Assembly (NCBI GenBank): GCA_012800135.1
Contig: JAAZJV010000194.1
Span: 1 to 12,928 of the forward strand
Origin: Clostridiaceae bacterium
GTDB taxonomy: Bacteria > Bacillota > Clostridia > Saccharofermentanales > DTU023
DNA: 12,928 nucleotides
Reading direction: 5' to 3'
The notes beneath the pieces were generated by a model. That model made no database searches. It saw only the letters and a program-made list of their open reading frames with translations, and had not been told where the DNA came from. The position numbers and the translations under genes were made by a program. Position 1 is the first letter of the stretch. The number at the start of each line of letters is the position of its first letter. This document shows positions 377 through 10,040 of this stretch, piece by piece.

Positions 377-1906
377 CTATCTTAAAGTGCCTGCGGCTTG
401 TTCAACAACCTGAACATATTTGCCTGCACGAATCTGGGCAGTTACTTTGTTCATATCCAAATAGATGGCTCGATCCGTCTCCATGAAGGTTACTTCGCTA
501 CGTAACAGTTCGTAAGCGGCTCGGGTACCTTTGCCTAGTTTGCTACTGTCCTTGAAGTCAATAGCTTGAGCTGCGCAAATAAGTTCGACTGCCAGCACGC
601 TTTGAACATGGCTGATGATGGTGGCAGCCTTCCTGGCAGAGATGGTTCCCATCGAGACATGGTCTTCTTGGTTGGCAGAGGTTGGGATTGAATCTACGCA
701 GGCGGGGTGGGCCAGTACTTTGTTTTCCGAGACTAAGGCCGCAGCACTGTACTGTGCAACCATGAATCCGTCGTTTAGACCCTCTACGGGAGTAAGGAAA
801 GCGGGAAGACCACTGAGCGCCGGATTGACCAGGCGTTCGATTCTCCGTTCCGATACATTGGCATACTCAGCCATTGCGATTCCCAGAGTATCCATAGCAA
901 CAGCAACGGGTTGACCGTGGAAATTGCCGCCGGAGAAAATATCTCCGTTATCCGGGAAAATCAGAGGATTGTCGGTGACGGAGTTTAATTCGGTTTCGAT
1001 GACTTTGCGCACATAGTCGTAAGCCAGGCGGCTGGCACCGTGGATTTGCGGAACACAGCGCAGCGTGTAAGCGTCTTGCACCCGGAGTTCGCCCTGCGGC
1101 ACTGTAAGACCGCTTCCGTCCAGAATTTGACGCAAATTGGACGCCACATCAATCTGGCCCTTGTGCGGACGGATGGCGTGGATACGTGGATCGAAAGCGC
1201 TTATAATCCCTTCCAGCGCATCCACGGTAAGGGATGCGGCGATGTCGGCCGTTTTTATAAGGATGCTGGCGTCGTAGACCGCCAGACTGCCTACACCCGT
1301 CATAGCGCAGGTACCGTTAATAAGAGCCAGCCCTTCCTTGGCTTTCAGGCTGATGACAGGAATGCCTGCGGCTTTCATTGCCTCTTGTCCTGACATGAGC
1401 TTGCCCTGATAGATTGCTTCACCTTCGCCGATCATCGGCATGACCATATGTGCCAAGGGACAGAGATCGCCACTGGAACCCACGGAGCCTTTTTCGGGGA
1501 TTACGGGATGTACGCCCTTGTTTAACATTTCCACAAGAGTCTCTACGGTAGATAAACGAATGCCTGAAAAGCCCTTAGCCAATGCATTTATACGCAACAG
1601 CATGATGGCGCGGGTCACATCTTCTTTGAAGGGATCACCGACACCGCAGGCGTCCGAGACGATCAGGTTGTACTGGAGCAGATCCAGGTCTTCTTCAGGA
1701 ATCGCTACATTGACAAATTTGCCGAAGCCGGTACTCAGACCGTAAACCACTTTTCCTGCAGAAACATTCTCTTCCACGATGTCCCGAGAGATCTGGACGG
1801 CTTTCTTTGCCTCTTCCGTAAGGGCTACCTTAGCACCATGACGGCAGACATCTACGACTTGTTCGATGGTGAGGCTGTTTCCGTCCAAGTAAACTAACTT
1901 TTCCAT
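377..1906 (-). CDS. hutH: Histidine ammonia-lyase (MIO family), variant active site
   Basis: The 509-aa product is full length for the aromatic amino acid lyase family. These cytoplasmic tetramers use an MIO prosthetic group to remove ammonia from histidine, giving trans-urocanate, the first step of histidine breakdown. Visible motifs are YGLSTGFG (Y55, equivalent to Tyr53 of Pseudomonas HAL), the MIO region GSVGSSGDL (S144-S145-G146), LINGT (N197), QDAYTLRC (Y280, R283), GGNFHGQP (F329) and ANQEDHVSMG (E414). Two residues are odd: the MIO triad is Ser-Ser-Gly rather than Ala-Ser-Gly, and the S-H substrate pair (His83 in Pseudomonas) reads S84-D85. The start is set by AAGGAGGG nine bases before ATG. 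A hairpin separates it from ftcD upstream, so it may have its own promoter. Family membership is certain; strict histidine specificity is inferred from the neighbours. Confidence 0.93.
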   Translation of the reverse strand: MEKLVYLDGNSLTIEQVVDVCRHGAKVALTEEAKKAVQISRDIVEENVSAGKVVYGLSTGFGKFVNVAIPEEDLDLLQYNLIVSDACGVGDPFKEDVTRAIMLLRINALAKGFSGIRLSTVETLVEMLNKGVHPVIPEKGSVGSSGDLCPLAHMVMPMIGEGEAIYQGKLMSGQEAMKAAGIPVISLKAKEGLALINGTCAMTGVGSLAVYDASILIKTADIAASLTVDALEGIISAFDPRIHAIRPHKGQIDVASNLRQILDGSGLTVPQGELRVQDAYTLRCVPQIHGASRLAYDYVRKVIETELNSVTDNPLIFPDNGDIFSGGNFHGQPVAVAMDTLGIAMAEYANVSERRIERLVNPALSGLPAFLTPVEGLNDGFMVAQYSAAALVSENKVLAHPACVDSIPTSANQEDHVSMGTISARKAATIISHVQSVLAVELICAAQAIDFKDSSKLGKGTRAAYELLRSEVTFMETDRAIYLDMNKVTAQIRAGKYVQVVEQAAGTLR

Positions 1907-2001
1907 GCTTGTCTTCCCTCCTTCAATAGTTCACGCAATTATTCATTTTATTTTACTCGATTTGATTGATTTTCTCTGCATGATTTAGTGTTTCTATGTG
2001 T

Positions 2002-2023
2002 AGCGGACTCGTTTTGTTCCGCT
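2002..2023. repeat. Short inverted repeat upstream of hutH
   Basis: AGCGGA (2002-2007) and TCCGCT (2018-2023) are perfectly inverted across 10 bases, about 100 bp upstream of the hutH start. This could be an operator or a small mRNA hairpin. I found no convincing -35/-10 pair nearby, so the role is open. Confidence 0.35.
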
Positions 2024-2077
2024 GTCCCTTGCAATATTCGTATGATGTTCATAAATTGCCGGTATAAGTCTAGAAGA

Positions 2078-2116
2078 AAGGGGCTGTCTCAAAGCAGGAC
2101 AGCCCCTTCTTTTTTA
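2078..2116. terminator. Strong hairpin/terminator in the ftcD-hutH gap
   Basis: A perfect 11-bp stem, AAGGGGCTGTC (2078-2088) with GACAGCCCCTT (2098-2108), has a 9-nt loop. The better T-run (six Ts at 2110-2115) lies on the plus-strand side. Leftward transcripts coming from ftcD meet the same stem followed by the weaker TTTCTTC. It starts 43 bases past the ftcD stop and would at least partly separate fchA-ftcD from hutH. Confidence 0.7.
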
Positions 2117-2151
2117 CTTGGCCGCCTCTGGTTGTTATGGTGAGGACGACC

Positions 2152-3030
2152 CTACATATATAGCTGTTCCGGAGTAAACCCGTGTGTACGCAGGTAGAAC
2201 TTCAGTACATCCATTAGAGCATAAACGGGAACGGGTCCGACCAAGTCGCAGTCAACCACACCAACACCATACTGCGCCGCTTCGCTTTTGATGGTCTCGA
2301 AGACGCGGTGGATAGGAGTTCTTTCGTAGTTGGTGAGATTCATGGATACTTGAACTATGCCGTCGCGGTCTTCCAGTGAAAGCGCGATTGCGCGAACATG
2401 CTGATATCCGCCGGTAGCCGCCCGAACCGCCTTTACGATTTTCTTGCCTATCTCCAGATCCTTTGTTTGAAGGTTTACATTGAACGCAATCAGAGGAAAG
2501 CGAACACCTGTGACGGTCGCTCCGCTCTTGGCATTGAAATCGGACGGCCCTTCGTCGGGGATCCATTCCGGATCCTTGAGTTTTTCTTCCAGCCCCTCAT
2601 ATTGACCTTTGCGAATTTTGGGCAGGCTCTTGCGTCCTTCGCAAGTGGCAGCGTCTTCGTAATAGTAAATTGGAACGCCGAGATCTCCCATGAACTTGCC
2701 GAACTCCCGGCAAATTTCTATAGCCTCTTCGACGGTTACTTCTTTTACAGGTATAAAAGGAACCACATCTACGGCGCCGATGCGGGGATGCGCGCCGACG
2801 TGTTTTGTCATGTCTATGAGCTCCACAGCCTTGGCGGATAGACGCTTGGCGGCCTCCAGTACTGCCTTCGGTTCTCCTTTAAAAGTAACCACAGTGCGGT
2901 TATGATCCGCATCGGTTGAAATCTCCATCAGGTCGATAGGATCTCCGTCCAGCATGGCTTCCTTTACCTGTTCGATCAATTCCTTGTCTTTACCTTCGCT
3001 GAAATTGACTTCAGCCATTAAACACTTCAT
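2152..3030 (-). CDS. ftcD: Glutamate formimidoyltransferase (FTCD N-terminal type)
   Basis: The 292-aa protein covers the two formiminotransferase subdomains without a cyclodeaminase domain, the usual size of stand-alone bacterial enzymes. It moves the formimino group of N-formimino-L-glutamate to tetrahydrofolate, releasing glutamate. The N-terminal EVNFSEGKD matches the family's NFSEG start. HVGAHPRIGAVDVVPF (77-92) carries the catalytic His (H81, equivalent to His82 of the mammalian enzyme). The segment NVNLQTKDLEIGKKI, typical of the second half, is also present. The start is supported by AAGGAG about nine bases before ATG. It lies 33 bp downstream of fchA and is almost surely co-transcribed with it. 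Unlike HutH, HutU and HutI, I see no altered key residue here. Its presence implies that the pathway ends in formiminoglutamate rather than formylglutamate. Confidence 0.93.
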   Translation of the reverse strand: MKCLMAEVNFSEGKDKELIEQVKEAMLDGDPIDLMEISTDADHNRTVVTFKGEPKAVLEAAKRLSAKAVELIDMTKHVGAHPRIGAVDVVPFIPVKEVTVEEAIEICREFGKFMGDLGVPIYYYEDAATCEGRKSLPKIRKGQYEGLEEKLKDPEWIPDEGPSDFNAKSGATVTGVRFPLIAFNVNLQTKDLEIGKKIVKAVRAATGGYQHVRAIALSLEDRDGIVQVSMNLTNYERTPIHRVFETIKSEAAQYGVGVVDCDLVGPVPVYALMDVLKFYLRTHGFTPEQLYM

Positions 3031-3063
3031 ATTATATTTCTCCTTTTAGCACTTTTCAGCATT

Positions 3064-3645
3064 TCAGTAGCAAATTACCTGAAGTAGCAGATCCAGCATA
3101 TCCTCTTTCAGCTCGGTCTTGACGGTCTCGTCTTTGATAAGCCCCAGATTTGCCTGAACATTCAGAATACAGTCTTTTACTCCGCCCTCGGAAAGATACA
3201 GAGCGCTGGCCAAGTCGGATGCACAGGCCGGATTGGAATTTCCTTTGAGCAGGACACCTAAATCGTGGACCCTTGCATTCATACGGGCGTTGTCTCTGGG
3301 AACCTCTGCCGCTCTGATGGCCGCTGCCTGGATTGCAGCACTTCGGGCTGTTTTTTCTTCTTCTGTTTTTTTGGGTAACTTAAACGCGTCCACAATCATG
3401 GAATAAGCTTCCGAATCCAGAACACAGCCTTCCTTTAATTTTTCGGCCAATTGATCGCACTCGTCAGCAATCTCATCGTATTGCTCCACGGTAAGATTGA
3501 CCGGCTTCTTTTTCGATAGTTTTGCTACCATCGAAACCATTCCTGCGGCCATAGCTCCGGATAGTGCGGAAGCGGAACCGCCGCCTGCGGTAGTATCATC
3601 GGAATCGATGATCTTCCTTACAATTTCGCTGACTTTTTGATCCAT
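3064..3645 (-). CDS. fchA: Formimidoyltetrahydrofolate cyclodeaminase
   Basis: The 193-aa all-helical protein belongs to the FTCD C-terminal/FchA family. It converts 5-formimino-THF to 5,10-methenyl-THF plus ammonia and so feeds histidine-derived carbon into the folate pool. The glycine-rich TTAGGGSASALSGAM (18-32), VPRDNARM and GNSNPACASDLASA motifs are characteristic of the family. I chose the ATG at 3645 because AAGGA lies six bases upstream and the protein then begins at the normal family N terminus. The frame stays open for 54 more codons to 3807, but that part has no family similarity, no ribosome site and overlaps regulatory repeats. It is the first gene of the leftward arm, divergent from hutU. 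Confidence 0.92.
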   Translation of the reverse strand: MDQKVSEIVRKIIDSDDTTAGGGSASALSGAMAAGMVSMVAKLSKKKPVNLTVEQYDEIADECDQLAEKLKEGCVLDSEAYSMIVDAFKLPKKTEEEKTARSAAIQAAAIRAAEVPRDNARMNARVHDLGVLLKGNSNPACASDLASALYLSEGGVKDCILNVQANLGLIKDETVKTELKEDMLDLLLQVICY

Positions 3646-3676
3646 ATCAAATCCTTGCCTCCCTTTCCGGAAAGAA

Positions 3677-3717
3677 GTTGTCCGTCCTGCATAATAACAA
3701 ATACTTCTCCGGACAAC
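3677..3717 (-). promoter_or_regulatory. fchA leader with two mutually exclusive hairpins
   Basis: On the minus strand GTTGTCCG (3717-3710) pairs perfectly with CGGACAAC (3684-3677). An alternative stem pairs CCGGA-GAAG (3712-3704) with CTTC-TT-TCCGG, which extends down to about 3667, next to the ribosome site. The two stems share bases and cannot form together. This is either a leader RNA switch or a protein-binding inverted repeat, depending on where transcription starts. Confidence 0.35.
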
Positions 3718-3725
3718 CTTGTCAA
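3697..3725 (-). promoter_or_regulatory. Weak candidate fchA promoter
   Basis: A perfect TTGACA lies on the minus strand at 3725-3720. The best -10 at 16-17 bp spacing is only TATTTG or ATTTGT, so this is either an activator-dependent promoter or a chance -35. Transcription might instead begin further upstream, near 3780-3830. Confidence 0.3.
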
Positions 3726-3789
3726 TACAAAACGCCTCCCTGCAGAGCCCTTTGTTCTCTCTGTGCGGGAGTGCTTTATGTATGTGCCG

Positions 3790-3805
3790 ATATGTACTTG
3801 TGAAC
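3790..3805. repeat. 16-bp direct repeat, copy 1 (candidate operator)
   Basis: ATATGTACTTGTGAAC here is identical to 3925-3940. Its core with flanking A (TGTACTTGTGAACA) is an imperfect dyad of the form TGTnCnnnnGnACA, as expected for a dimeric regulator. It lies on the fchA side of the divergent region. Confidence 0.6.
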
Positions 3806-3837
3806 ATGTAAAGTCAGGTTGAGGGTATCAAAGTTTT

Positions 3838-3858
3838 CGAACAAATTCAAGCTGTTCG
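3838..3858. repeat. Inverted repeat CGAACA-N9-TGTTCG
   Basis: Two perfect 6-bp half-sites lie 60-80 bp upstream of the hutU -10 box, where an activator would bind. The half-sites resemble those of the Bacillus LexA box, but the spacing is 9 instead of 2, so I do not call it LexA. Confidence 0.4.
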
Positions 3859-3870
3859 CACGAAGCAAGG

Positions 3871-3885
3871 TATGCAGATAGCATA
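3871..3885. repeat. Inverted repeat TATGC-N5-GCATA
   Basis: A perfect 5-bp dyad is centred at 3878, about 40 bp upstream of the hutU -10 box. It is a possible activator or repressor half-site pair; short enough to occur by chance. Confidence 0.3.
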
Positions 3886-3894
3886 GCGAAAATC

Positions 3895-3922
3895 CTCTTG
3901 AATTATTATTATGCAATATAAT
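3895..3922 (+). promoter_or_regulatory. Candidate hutU promoter
   Basis: A perfect TATAAT is at 3917-3922. The -35 position holds only CTCTTG (3895-3900, 16-bp spacer), so the promoter is probably regulated. Predicted transcription starts near 3929, inside repeat copy 2. That gives a leader of about 95 nt before the hutU start. Confidence 0.55.
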
Positions 3923-3924
3923 GA

Positions 3925-3940
3925 ATATGTACTTGTGAAC
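3925..3940. repeat. 16-bp direct repeat, copy 2 (candidate operator at +1)
   Basis: This is identical to 3790-3805 and begins two bases after the hutU TATAAT, so it covers the likely start point of transcription. That is the classic position for repression. The copies are 135 bp apart, about 13 helical turns, which would suit DNA looping. Confidence 0.6.
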
Positions 3941-4022
3941 CGGTATGGAATGCCAGTGGAATCATTCTAATCCGTTACTAATTTTTTGCACATCTGCAAT
4001 TTTTGGAGGGAGGAACAGATCT

Positions 4023-5795
4023 ATGTCAATGAACGGTGGAAACATGTTTGAGCCCAAGCCAGGCAAGCCGGAGGTATTATACTCCGTAAAGGCTCAGCGA
4101 GGCGGCTTCGACAAGCCGGAGAGTCTTCGTTGCAAGGGGTGGAAGCAGGAAACGATCCTGCGCATGTTAGAGAACAATATGGAAAATGCCGAGATTCCCG
4201 AGATGCTCATCATTTACGGCGGCAACGGAAAATGTGCCCGTAACTGGGAATCTTACTACGCCATTATAGAAACTCTTAAAATCTTAGAAGACGACGAGAC
4301 TCTGGTCGTTCAGTCCGGTATGCCTGTCGCTGTTTTCAAGACTCACAAACTTGCCCCTGCCGTGGTCATGGCCACTACCAACATCATGAAGGCCACATGG
4401 GAGCGTTTCTATGATCTGCAGGACAAGAACCTGACAATCTTTGCCCAATATACGGCTGCTCCTTGGGAGTACATCGGTACGCAGGGAGTTATCGAAGGTA
4501 CTTTCGAAACATTGTCCGCTATCACCCTCAAAAAGGGCTGGGAAAACGACATGCATGGTAAGATTTTCTTCACTGCAGGTGCAGGCGGCATGGGCGGAAA
4601 CCAGTCTTGGGCAGGCAAGATGCACGGTGCCGTAGTTATTCTGGTCGACGCTGACGAGCGGGTTATCGATCGTCGTATCGAGAAGAACTACATGGATATG
4701 AAGGTTGACACATTAGACGAGGCTTGGGCCATTGCTCAGGAGCATATCAAAAATGACGATCCCATCGCCATCGCCGTCATCGGCAACGCTGCCGATGTTT
4801 TCGAGGAGGCTCTGGAGAAAGGTTATATTCCCGATGTAGTCACCGAGATGTGTCCTTGCCACGATCCCATTTCCTATATTCCTTCCGGCTATACCGGCGA
4901 AGAGGCCGATGTTTATCGCGGCGAGAATCGCGAGAAATATCTGGAAGATGCCCGTGCAACCATGATTCGTCAATTGCGTGCGATGATAGCGCTCAAGAAA
5001 CGCGGTGCTGAGGTCTTCGAGTACGGTACCAGTATCCGCAAGGAGTGCATGGACGCCGGCATGCCCGAGGCCGAAGCTAAGCAGATCGAAGGTTTCGTAG
5101 CTGCTTACATTCGTCCCCTCTTCTGCGAAGGCCGCGGACCTTTCCGTTGGACATGCATTTCTGGCGATCCTGCCGATCTTGCCCGATTGGACGATCTGGC
5201 ACTCGAGATCTGTAAGGGTGATCCTCTTGTAGAACGTTGGATTAATTTGGCTCGCGTACACCTGCCCATCGAGGCTTTACCTGCCCGTATCTGCTACATG
5301 GGCTTCGGACAGCGCAAACGTTTTGCTTTGGCAGTCAACGAGCTCATCAAGAAAGGCGAGGTCAAAGGTCCCGTGGCGTTCTCTCGCGACAATCTGGACT
5401 CCGGTTCCATCGTGAATCCCACGTTTGAATCCGAGAATATGCCTGACGGCGGCGACTACATTTCCGACTGGCCTATGCTCAACGCTCTGTTGAACTGTGC
5501 CGGAATGTGCGACTTAATCGCTATCCAAGCCAACTACTCTATGGGCGAAGCCGTTCACACCGGCGTCACCATGATCGCCGACGGTACCGACGAAGCGGCG
5601 CTTCGTTTGTCCGTTTGCATGGTCACCGACTCCGGTATAGGGGTTGTCCGTCACGCTCAGTCCGGTTATCAAACCGCAAAGGATGTGTGTAACGGCAAGG
5701 GCAAGATTGCCGGCGGCGACAGCATCAAAGTACCGCTTTGGTGGGAGACCGCCGACAAGGTTACTTTCGGTCCTGAAGGGCGCTACATCCGTTAA
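4023..5795 (+). CDS. hutU: Urocanate hydratase (urocanase), divergent type
   Basis: The 590-aa protein is of the urocanase family, which uses tightly bound NAD+ to add water to urocanate, giving imidazolone propionate. It is somewhat longer than the usual 555 aa because of a C-terminal tail (about 551-590). Conserved parts are IIYGGNGKCARNW (63-75), WEYIGTQGVIEGTFET (148-163), TAGAGGMGGNQ (184-194), GNAADV, the active-site Cys in LFCEGRGPFRW (C368) and LPARICYMGFG. Altered parts are QTSAHD, which reads MCPCHD (276-281), and YGNN, which reads YGTS (334-337). The HHGGGVGMG loop reads AIQANYSMG (500-508). The start follows GGAGGGAGG; an ORF extension to 3945 lacks a ribosome site and covers the operator side. 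It is the first gene of the rightward arm. The family is sure; whether the substrate is plain urocanate is inferred. Confidence 0.9.
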   Translation: MSMNGGNMFEPKPGKPEVLYSVKAQRGGFDKPESLRCKGWKQETILRMLENNMENAEIPEMLIIYGGNGKCARNWESYYAIIETLKILEDDETLVVQSGMPVAVFKTHKLAPAVVMATTNIMKATWERFYDLQDKNLTIFAQYTAAPWEYIGTQGVIEGTFETLSAITLKKGWENDMHGKIFFTAGAGGMGGNQSWAGKMHGAVVILVDADERVIDRRIEKNYMDMKVDTLDEAWAIAQEHIKNDDPIAIAVIGNAADVFEEALEKGYIPDVVTEMCPCHDPISYIPSGYTGEEADVYRGENREKYLEDARATMIRQLRAMIALKKRGAEVFEYGTSIRKECMDAGMPEAEAKQIEGFVAAYIRPLFCEGRGPFRWTCISGDPADLARLDDLALEICKGDPLVERWINLARVHLPIEALPARICYMGFGQRKRFALAVNELIKKGEVKGPVAFSRDNLDSGSIVNPTFESENMPDGGDYISDWPMLNALLNCAGMCDLIAIQANYSMGEAVHTGVTMIADGTDEAALRLSVCMVTDSGIGVVRHAQSGYQTAKDVCNGKGKIAGGDSIKVPLWWETADKVTFGPEGRYIR

Positions 5796-5811
5796 TTTGT
5801 CAGTCTATTCA

Positions 5812-5846
5812 GTACTCTTTTCCACTTTAAAAGTGGAAAAGAGTAC
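5812..5846. repeat. Perfect 16-bp hairpin between hutU and hutI
   Basis: Bases 5812-5827 pair without a mismatch with 5831-5846 around a 3-nt loop. No T-run follows on either strand, so it is not a standard terminator. Likely roles are mRNA stabilisation, differential expression of hutU over hutI, or RNase III processing. Confidence 0.75.
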
Positions 5847-5881
5847 ACTTCTTGGAAGCAAATTATTCAGAGGTCGGCTAT

Positions 5882-7147
5882 ATGGCAGAAGTTAAGAAGA
5901 ATAAGTTGCTGATAGAAAATGCCGCACAGCTTTTAACCATGCGAGGTGAAAACAATCACGATATAGGCATGGTGGAGTCCGGATGCGTGTATATAGAAGG
6001 AGAGAATATCAAGGCGGTCGGAACTAAGGAGGAGGTTGAAAAGGCGGCAGGTTCTCTGGAAGGAGTTGCACGCCTGGATGCTTCCGGAAAAGTAGTTATG
6101 CCCGGTTTTGTCGACAGTCACACTCATGTTGTGTTCGGCGGGTCTAGAGTTGTAGAGTATTCGATCAAGCTGACCGATGACCGACCGGAAACACTTAAGA
6201 AACTTGGAATACCCACAGGGATCAATGCTTCTGTAGGGATGACACGGGGTCTTCCGGTAGAACTGCTTGCCGAACAGACGGAACGCAGAATGCGAAATAT
6301 GCTGATTACCGGTACGACAACTATAGAAAGCAAAAGCGGCTACGGTCTTACACTCCCTTCGGAGATGAAAATGCTGGAGGTCAACCGGCTTTTAAGTGCC
6401 TGTCTTCCTATGGAAATTGTCCCGACTTTTTTGGGCGCGCACGGCTGGCCGGAAGATAAAACGAAAGACTGGTATGTCGATTATCTGTGCGAGGAGATGA
6501 TTCCACAGGTAGCGGCTTTCAAGATGGCCTCATTCAATGATGTGTGGATAGAGGAAGGAATATTTACCGTTAAAGATGCCGAACGCATATTTACTCGCGG
6601 AAAAGAATACGGACTGATACCTTGTATGCATTTGGACGCTTACTCGGATATCGGCGGTGCCGCGTTGGCTGTTGAGATGAAGGTGGCAAATGCGGGGCAT
6701 ATGAACTATACACAGCCTGCCATGTTCCCTCGTCTCCGCGATGCGGGGGTAGTGGGAATAATCTTGCCCGGCACGGACTTTGCCGTTCAGCATAATCGCC
6801 CTGTTAATCCGAGACCCATGCTGGAGGCAGGAATGACTTTGGCTCTCGCTACAAACTGCAACCCAGGCAACTGGATGGAATCTATGCTGCCGGTGCTGGT
6901 GTTGGCTTGCCGGGTGCACGGCTTTACTCCGGCAGAGGCAATGCGTGCTGCTACTTACGGATCTGCACGTGCCCTCACGCTCACTGACCGCGGTGTTTTA
7001 GATGTAGACAAGGTTGCCGACATCATTGTTTTCGACATAGATACATTTGAAGACATTATATATAAATATGGCCGAAACCATGTACAAACCGTCATCAAAA
7101 AAGGCAAGGTTGTGGTGGAAAACAGACGCATATTAAATGACGACTAA
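5882..7147 (+). CDS. hutI: Imidazolonepropionase-like amidohydrolase, altered metal site
   Basis: The 421-aa amidohydrolase-superfamily protein matches HutI along its length. HutI opens the imidazolone ring to formiminoglutamate in the cytoplasm. Visible features are the HxH metal motif DSHTHVVFGGSR (H80, H82, R89), ESKSGYGL (149-156), PTFLGAH (H186), H250 in MHLDAYSD and H273 in NAGHMNYT. These line up with B. subtilis HutI at an offset of 0-1. However, Glu252 is A253, the metal ligand Asp324 is N325 (ATNCNPG), and the GGGI substrate loop reads IPTGI (110-114). I chose ATG 5882, with AGAGG eight bases upstream, over a TTG at 5852. It sits 86 bp after hutU across a hairpin. The context says imidazolonepropionase; the residues allow a different ring hydrolase or an unusual metal centre. 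Confidence 0.85.
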   Translation: MAEVKKNKLLIENAAQLLTMRGENNHDIGMVESGCVYIEGENIKAVGTKEEVEKAAGSLEGVARLDASGKVVMPGFVDSHTHVVFGGSRVVEYSIKLTDDRPETLKKLGIPTGINASVGMTRGLPVELLAEQTERRMRNMLITGTTTIESKSGYGLTLPSEMKMLEVNRLLSACLPMEIVPTFLGAHGWPEDKTKDWYVDYLCEEMIPQVAAFKMASFNDVWIEEGIFTVKDAERIFTRGKEYGLIPCMHLDAYSDIGGAALAVEMKVANAGHMNYTQPAMFPRLRDAGVVGIILPGTDFAVQHNRPVNPRPMLEAGMTLALATNCNPGNWMESMLPVLVLACRVHGFTPAEAMRAATYGSARALTLTDRGVLDVDKVADIIVFDIDTFEDIIYKYGRNHVQTVIKKGKVVVENRRILNDD

Positions 7148-8558: not shown

Positions 8559-8612
8559 ACTAAATTGTTGTTTGTTTCGGACTTCCGTTCGAAGCAGACC
8601 GTGAAAGAGGTG

Positions 8613-8644
8613 ATCGAGCTGCGGTTTTGCGACCGCGGCTCGGT
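8613..8644 (+). repeat. Hairpin plus poly-A directly before the permease ribosome site
   Basis: A 13-bp stem (8613-8625 with 8632-8644, two U-G pairs) has a 6-nt loop. It is followed at once by nine As (8645-8653) and GGAG (8654-8657). In the sense direction there is no U-tract, so it is not a terminator for M20. It may uncouple permease translation or mark an mRNA processing point. Confidence 0.6.
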
Positions 8645-8666
8645 AAAAAAAAAGGAGAACAATTCA

Positions 8667-10040
8667 ATGTCAGATCAGAAAACTCAATCAAAAGAGACAC
8701 TTACCTCAACCAAAGATCTTAAGCGAGTTTTAGGCTTTTGGGATCTGATGGCCGTTTCAGTCGGTTCTATTATCGGTTCCGGCATCATGTCGTTAACCGG
8801 TTACGGAATCGGTCGTACCGGTCGTTCCATCTTCATCGCATTTTTCATTGGCGCTTTCATCGTCGTGCTGGCCCGCTCTCCTCAGATTTTCCTGAACTCA
8901 GTGGCCCGCTTCAGAGGCGGTGACTACACCATGGTCGGGACCTTTTTAGGTCCGCGGTGGAGTGGCACTTATTCCATGATTGCTCTTTTGACCAGTGTTA
9001 CTTTGGGCATGTATGCTTTGTCCTTCGCCGACTATGTAATGCCCTTTGTGCCTTGGATCGGGAGAAGAGTGATCGCTTTCTTAATCTTAACCGTACTATT
9101 CATCACCAACTTTTTCGGTGTGAACGTCTTCTCCAAGGTTCAGAACATCGCTGTAATCGTGTTGGTTATTTCACTGACGATATTTACAGTTGTCGGCCTA
9201 ACGAAGGTGGAACCCGGTTACTTCAAAGCTGAAACATTTATGCCTTTCGGTCTTAAGGGTTTGTGGAGCGCTTCCGTTCTCATGAGTTACACCTGCGACG
9301 GTTGTCAGTATGTAACGCAGTTAGGCGCGGAGGCCAAGAGACCTACCCGCGACATCCCCGTCGTCATGCTGGTATCCACCTTGGGAGTAGCTCTCCTTTA
9401 CGGCTTAATGGGTATAGTTGCCGCCGGTGTACTGCCTTTGGATCAAGTAGTCGATAAGCCCTTAGGAGTAGTTGCGGAAGCAATCCTGTCCAAGCCGCTG
9501 TACTTAGTGTTTGTTATCGGCGGTGCGTGGATGGCCCTACTCACCACTCTGAACAGTTCCATCGCTACTTGTACAAGGCCTCTCATGCAGGCTTGCAATG
9601 ACGGCTGGTATCCCAACTCTCTGGCACGTCTGCATCCCAAGTTCCGTACTCCTATCATCCTGATGCTTTTCTACTATGTAATAGGACTGGTGCCGATCGT
9701 GTTCGACCTGAATTTGGGGGTCGTCGGAGATATGACAATTGCCGTAGGCTCTATCACCAAGTTCATGGTTGTTCTCAGTCTGGTCAGAATGCCCAAGGTT
9801 CTGCCCGAGGCTTGGAAGAAGTCCAGATTCCACATCAGCACACCTGCTCTTATGCTTCTGGCCTTAGTGGACGGGCTTGTCATCGTGATCTCAGGCGTTA
9901 CTTCGGCCATAAATATGCCGATTCCTCTGCTTGTAGGAAACTTGGCAGTGGTCGTTTTCGCCTTCGGCTTCGGCGCTATTCGCTATAGAACCGGGAAGGT
10001 CAAGTTGGACGATAGCTACGAGATCGTTGTTGACGAATAG
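8667..10040 (+). CDS. APC superfamily amino acid permease
   Basis: The 457-aa inner-membrane protein has about twelve hydrophobic segments. It starts with a short polar N terminus (1-20) and a first helix carrying GSIIGSGI (33-40), the unwound substrate-binding motif of the amino acid-polyamine-organocation transporters. The charged loop GAEAKRPTRDIPVV, typical of the family's TM6-7 region, is also present. It would import amino acids by cation symport or exchange. ATG 8667 follows AAAGGAG by nine bases; an upstream extension of 34 codons runs through the hairpin and poly-A and is unlikely to be translated. As the last gene of the rightward arm it is a good candidate importer for histidine, a histidine analogue or a His-containing dipeptide. 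The substrate is inferred from neighbours only. It is followed by a strong terminator. Confidence 0.9.
   Translation: MSDQKTQSKETLTSTKDLKRVLGFWDLMAVSVGSIIGSGIMSLTGYGIGRTGRSIFIAFFIGAFIVVLARSPQIFLNSVARFRGGDYTMVGTFLGPRWSGTYSMIALLTSVTLGMYALSFADYVMPFVPWIGRRVIAFLILTVLFITNFFGVNVFSKVQNIAVIVLVISLTIFTVVGLTKVEPGYFKAETFMPFGLKGLWSASVLMSYTCDGCQYVTQLGAEAKRPTRDIPVVMLVSTLGVALLYGLMGIVAAGVLPLDQVVDKPLGVVAEAILSKPLYLVFVIGGAWMALLTTLNSSIATCTRPLMQACNDGWYPNSLARLHPKFRTPIILMLFYYVIGLVPIVFDLNLGVVGDMTIAVGSITKFMVVLSLVRMPKVLPEAWKKSRFHISTPALMLLALVDGLVIVISGVTSAINMPIPLLVGNLAVVVFAFGFGAIRYRTGKVKLDDSYEIVVDE

Follow-up and report, generated by a model that had tools for sequence, protein, structure and literature searches.

A remodelled hut-type gene cluster in Clostridia, probably serving the degradation of N-tau-methylhistidine

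The window analysed here (G000:C26:1-12928) is a stretch of 12,928 nucleotides from a Clostridiaceae bacterium, whose 1.65-Mb draft genome is 84% complete and consists of 348 contigs. At positions 377-7147 it carries five genes related to those of histidine utilization (hut): an ammonia-lyase (hutH'), a urocanase homologue (hutU'), an imidazolonepropionase homologue (hutI'), a formimidoyltransferase (ftcD') and a cyclodeaminase/cyclohydrolase (fchA'). The cluster is likely to be a dedicated N-tau-methylhistidine pathway that stands beside an ordinary histidine pathway, a reading to which we give a probability of about 0.7. It belongs to a second, remodelled five-enzyme set that is common to scattered bacteria of several phyla and whose probable role is to break down a methylated histidine released by proteins of muscle and the cell skeleton. 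The observations themselves are the genes, the residue changes, the shared ancestry and linkage of the genes, and their coexistence with ordinary hut genes. An initial annotation of the window had proposed a coordinated shift in substrate through three successive enzymes, HutH, HutU and HutI. Such a shift is supported by the co-occurrence of the variants, by trees and by the ordinary hut genes that coexist with them; FtcD and FchA, which had been judged ordinary, form clades of their own, so five enzymes are involved and not three.

Five remodelled enzymes

The open-reading-frame gene calls across 377-7147 were confirmed. Around an intergenic region at 3646-4022 the genes diverge into a minus-strand group, fchA'-ftcD'-hutH', and a plus-strand group, hutU'-hutI'. 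The start chosen for hutU' (4023-5795, plus strand) is ATG 4023, which follows a GGAGG-type site; the longest open reading frame runs from 3945. In HutU', EMCPCHD (4845-4865) stands where urocanase has DQTSAHD, YGTSIRKE (5022-5045) where it has YGNNIR, and IQANYSMGEAVHTG (5523-5564) where it has HHGGGVG-x-GYS-x-HAG. None of the canonical QTSAHD, GNN and HHGGGVG motifs is present, as the initial annotation had noticed.

Relatives were collected from GTDB genomes by a search with an alignment of the HutU' proteins of the window's genome (G000) and two others (G222 and G387), which gave 76 loci from the best 80 of 220 matching stretches. All 84 HutU' rows of at least 450 amino acids, which represent 76 of the 79 loci, retain the loop (A)NYSMGEAVHTG and the motif YGTS-x-RKE with only a few substitutions. 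MCPCHD occurs in 43 of these rows, and MTPAHD, MTPGHD or MTLAHD in 41, which come from 35 loci of Bacilli. HutU' forms a single clade (support 100*; 54 thinned rows), with three other urocanases as its nearest neighbors (98*), in a tree for which the program warned of long branches. Within the phylum, 70 of 398 sampled genomes contain a match to HutU' at E <= 1e-150, and HutU' itself is found only in G000, G222 (74% identity) and G387 (73%), the next best urocanase being 48% identical.

The entry enzyme HutH' (377-1906, minus strand; 509 amino acids) has Asp85 (codon 1652-1654) aligned where histidine ammonia-lyase (HAL) has His83, and it retains the equivalents of the QED Glu, Tyr53 and Arg283. 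This position is replaced in every one of the 51 cluster lyases of at least 400 amino acids (out of 58 in the family), by Asp in 42 and by Cys in nine, and the QED Glu is kept in 50 of them, with one gap. A wider set of 86 lyases holds 45 Asp, nine Cys and 32 His rows, and every His row comes from other loci. A changed lyase without HutU' nearby occurs in one row, L225; its genome (G446) does contain HutU', on another contig. In a published study, the H82L variant of GkHAL, which alters the same His, is inactive on histidine, and similar mutants of the Pseudomonas putida enzyme have a kcat 1,000-20,930 times lower (PMC11432326). The Ser-Ser-Gly at residues 144-146, also pointed out initially, is indeed present, although it carries little weight and was rejected as a mark of the pathway, as it is found in only six of the 51 rows and also in a His83 lyase (L054).

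In a careful lyase tree (64 thinned rows, excluding the trait column and the two columns flanking it on each side), five changes between His and Asp or Cys are required, and the starred branches force at least three changes of the His label. A single clade of changed lyases appeared in none of 200 bootstrap trees. The changed lyases of Bacillaceae adjoin His lyases of Bacillaceae (100/99*), and the changed Clostridium lyase falls within a His group (100/97*). The five changes suggest that loss of the His probably recurred beside HutU', so that the entry lyase was probably recruited more than once. Trees and a test of co-occurrence were the checks that the initial annotation had proposed: HutU' and HutI' form single clades, the lyase residue is changed in 51 of 51 rows, and the changed lyases probably have more than one origin. 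Two HutH-like proteins (L188:3652-5190 and L077:5542-7089) lack the Ala-Ser-Gly triad of the 4-methylidene-imidazole-5-one (MIO) group, showing VGY--- in the alignment and QEDYV, and for one of them ordinary hutU and hutI lie within the same stretch. L077, a Cys row and a MIO-less paralogue, was dropped from the lyase trees, and L188 is a MIO-less row among the His rows.

For hutI' (5852-7147, plus strand) the likely start is ATG 5882. Aligned to chain 2bb0, HutI' has Ala263 (6638-6640) for E252 and Asn335 (6854-6856) for D324, which we take to be a metal-ligand Asp, and GGGI is absent, all in agreement with the initial annotation. Across 91 deduplicated rows the E252 position is Ala in 68, Glu in 18, Cys in three, Gln in one and a gap in one, and the Ala and Cys rows make up one clade (99*; 51 thinned rows). 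The Asn for D324 carries little weight and was rejected as a defining mark, since 34 of the 68 Ala rows still have Asp.

The two folate enzymes are also distinctive. FtcD' (2152-3030, minus strand; 292 amino acids) belongs to a clade that, in the set examined, is seen only with variant clusters: one 100* branch of 31 rows, made up of 28 cluster-labelled rows, L150 and L151 (second copies of the L061/L062 genes) and L227, whose FtcD adjoins HutU' in G445. The 29 distinct cluster rows and 28 ordinary rows (one gene, L006/L201, counted twice) have non-overlapping residues at positions 5, 113, 123 and 160 (numbering of the window protein). At a position fixed by alignment to 1qd1, Ala80 of FtcD' replaces the usual Glu before a His that is presumably catalytic; ordinary FtcD has Glu here in 22 of the 28 rows (Ala two, Gln two, Ser one, Asp one), whereas cluster FtcD has Ser in 16, Ala in six, Asp in six and Gly in one, and never Glu. 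For fchA' (3064-3645, minus strand; 193 amino acids) ATG 3645 was chosen as the start, the longest open reading frame reaching 3807. FchA' falls in a 99* branch of 30 cluster rows and L227, against only six other rows for comparison, and scores below the cut-off of the FchA model NF045657 (110 vs 275 bits).

Linkage, two endings and ordinary hut genes

The same variant residues recur across several phyla: carriers include Bacillaceae, Oscillospiraceae, Acidaminobacter, Synergistaceae, Desulfobacterales, Actinomycetota and others. In G222 and G387 the genes hutU'-hutI'-fchA-ftcD-hutH' form one run. Two endings of the cluster can be distinguished. Among the 79 loci, 35 carry M20a, a PepT-like M20 hydrolase family, 33 carry FtcD and/or FchA, none carries both, and 11 carry neither, with the caution that absences are counted less reliably because many loci lie on short metagenome contigs. 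The loci with M20a coincide exactly with the 35 whose HutU' bears MTP(A/G)HD or MTLAHD. In Siminovitchia terrae (L103) the HutU'/HutI'/HutH' trio is accompanied by an M20a hydrolase in place of FtcD and FchA. HutU' and HutI' of the window share one clade each with the L103 genes; the two lyases have the same Asp, yet sit on separate branches. Of the three lyase-family genes of S. terrae, one encodes an ordinary His lyase, another lacks the MIO triad, and only the third, that of L103, has lost His83. Some close relatives are recorded from gut sources, for example L068 from the abomasum of a water deer.

Ordinary hut genes occur in the same genomes. In G000, an ordinary HutH accompanied by FchA lies on contig C88 and an ordinary HutI on C76. 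The C-terminal portion of a long ordinary HutU, which shares 87% identity with that of a genus relative, is also on C76; it escaped the family search, as the scored domain falls outside the contig. On C88 (L198), the ordinary hutH and fchA lie, as judged by eye, between RecN-like and RNase Y-like genes, apart from hutU-hutI on C76. In G387 a single 174.6-kb contig carries both HutU' and, some 35 kb away, a long HutU of the ordinary kind, and G222 has an ordinary HutU and HutI too. At least one further, higher-scoring urocanase was found in 17 of 18 other carriers, which we chose from the 76 loci.

In S. terrae, Neobacillus mesonae and N. kokaensis (L184, L185 and L187), one or two extra urocanase homologues lie beside acyl-CoA dehydrogenase-like and CoA-transferase-like genes, and in L184 and L185 beside electron-transfer-type genes as well (all named by eye). 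This set possibly represents an entry of imidazolepropionate or dihydrourocanate into the hut route. No lyase was seen in these three stretches, and its absence from the 20-kb L184 stretch makes it unlikely that the two extra S. terrae urocanases are methylhistidine genes.

Downstream of hutI' lie an M20 amidohydrolase gene (TIGR01891; 7275-8558, plus strand), which is distinct from the M20a hydrolase of the Bacilli clusters and whose family occurs in four of the 79 loci, and an APC-type amino acid permease gene (8565-10040, plus strand), possibly for uptake. Linkage of these two genes to variant clusters is rare, and a role as core pathway parts is not supported. The transporter adjoining the cluster varies by locus, being an APC permease or of NhaC-like, YlbJ-like, ABC or TRAP type (the last two named by eye). 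A tRNA-Ser gene and a two-gene ABC transporter flank the cluster in the window.

Substrate, proposed steps and rival explanations

In Hut chemistry, C2 and N-tau of the ring become the formimino group, so a methyl group at N-tau would be carried along the whole five-enzyme sequence. Bacterial degradation of N-tau-methylhistidine is the subject of a 2022 paper by Beliaeva, Atac and Seebeck (ACS Chem Biol 17:1989), reportedly in Bacillus terra and with glutamate and N-methylformamide as products. We take S. terrae to be probably the organism of that pathway, with L103 presumably the studied cluster. It is from this precedent, the L103 genes, Hut chemistry and the failure of HutU' to reach thiourocanate-type cut-offs that we infer the substrate and every chemical step. 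HutH' would remove ammonia from N-tau-methylhistidine to give N-tau-methylurocanate, HutU' would hydrate the latter, and HutI' would yield N-(N'-methylformimino)-L-glutamate by ring opening. FtcD' would then transfer the methylformimino group to tetrahydrofolate, freeing glutamate, and FchA' would cyclise it to 5,10-methenyl-tetrahydrofolate with release of methylamine. The first three steps lean on the reported Bacillus pathway, and the last two are our own proposed extension; the folate ending with methylamine release looks like the new part. No description of an anaerobic variant was found in the literature searched, which left most subscription papers outside its coverage and does not prove absence from print. 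The fuller scheme, for which we see about even chances, is an anaerobic, folate-linked fermentation of N-tau-methylhistidine in several phyla, in which a dedicated FtcD'/FchA' pair passes the N-methylformimino group to tetrahydrofolate and releases methylamine, a food for methylotrophic methanogens in guts, and in which local histidine lyases gave rise to the entry lyase on several occasions through the same replacement of His by Asp or Cys.

As an alternative, the initial annotation had considered that these are true histidine enzymes of a divergent anaerobe clade. The changes would in that case be neutral drift in an anaerobe lineage. The whole-family models are all passed (bits/cut-off: hutH 685/539, hutU 601/375, hutI 313/298, FtcD 424/221), and the cluster FtcD is the sole FtcD found in G000, G222 and G387. 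The ordinary hut genes in the same genome, the higher-scoring urocanases of the tested carriers, the recurrence of the same residues in several phyla and the inactivity of the GkHAL mutant on histidine (PMC11432326) nevertheless make this account very improbable, and a sole divergent histidine pathway was rejected on the coexisting genes. Another histidine modified on the ring or at N-tau, 2-thio and S-methyl forms included, is an unlikely substrate. The best model score of HutU' is that for S-methyl-thiourocanate hydratase, and the HHGGGVG loop is changed too in 7ned and 8q9u (thiourocanate and S-methyl-thiourocanate hydratase, respectively, by NCBIfam cut-offs), so the loop looks specificity-related. 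However, HutU' stays about 350 bits below the cut-off for the former (NF058530; 579 vs 930 bits, 7ned reaching 1009) and about 250 below that for the latter (NF058531; 629 vs 880 bits, 8q9u reaching 963), the cluster lyases keep the QED Glu, which ergothionase is not known to carry, and FtcD and FchA would have no sensible role with a C2-sulfur compound. The ergothioneine and S-methyl-ergothioneine routes were rejected on these cut-offs and on the kept Glu, and the initial preference for a side-chain-modified histidine over ergothioneine holds on the same two cut-offs. N-pi-methylhistidine, which derives from anserine, is a natural isomer that would likewise need remodelled HutH, HutU and HutI pockets, its methyl staying on the glutamate nitrogen to give N-methylglutamate. 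Folate would in that case receive an unmodified formimino group, for which a changed FchA clade is not needed (a weak point, as co-inheritance is possible), no N-methylglutamate oxidase stood out among the neighbor families listed, most of which were not annotated singly, and the published precedent concerns N-tau; this isomer is an unlikely substrate.

Several points weigh against the assignment to N-tau-methylhistidine. Since G000 is a draft of 348 contigs, coexistence with its ordinary hut genes hinges on correct binning. FtcD' may also serve ordinary histidine in G000, G222 and G387, where no FtcD was found besides that of the cluster. One origin of the changed lyases is not formally rejected by the approximately unbiased test (p 0.062), and the independent-pairs test had four starred pairs, three in the same direction and one without difference, too few for significance. 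HutI' could be impaired by the Asn at the presumed metal-ligand Asp. Five of the 11 loci with neither ending span more than 9 kb (L073 has 21.7 kb), and a Clostridium locus (L079) has FchA' without an adjoining FtcD. Corrinoid genes of the MttB-like (trimethylamine-methyltransferase) type occur in eight variant loci (L083, L090, L091, L092, L098, L105, L113 and L132); that of L083 scores 315 bits against a pyrrolysine-type cut-off of 525.

Significance and comparison with known systems

N-tau-methylhistidine is a widely used marker of muscle breakdown. If the N-tau-methylhistidine pathway is real, anaerobes would destroy this compound to glutamate, a folate one-carbon unit and methylamine, a substrate of methanogens. 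Its gene signature, NYSMGEA in HutU, Asp or Cys for His83 in the lyase and DAYS in HutI, could be used to correct many annotations as 'histidine ammonia-lyase' or 'urocanate hydratase', and the cluster would show how a pathway of five steps can be duplicated and adapted to a methylated substrate.

Bacillus-type N-tau-methylhistidine degradation, presumably represented by S. terrae L103, shares the HutU' clade, an Asp-for-His83 lyase and an Ala-for-E252 HutI. It differs from the window in its M20a hydrolase, assumed to free N-methylformamide in the final step, where the window has FtcD' and FchA'. The window HutI' moreover has Asn for D324, and its HutU' has MCPCHD, whereas all 35 M20a loci have MTP(A/G)HD or MTLAHD. 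The canonical system (hutHUI with ftcD and fchA) is alike in protein families, step order and gene set; in the window, however, catalytic or contact positions of HutH, HutU, HutI and FtcD are changed, and the ordinary genes lie separately in the genome. The ergothioneine pathway hydratases 7ned and 8q9u are also urocanase homologues with a changed HHGGGVG loop, but HutU' has a different solution for this loop, does not reach their model cut-offs and is accompanied by a lyase that keeps its Glu.

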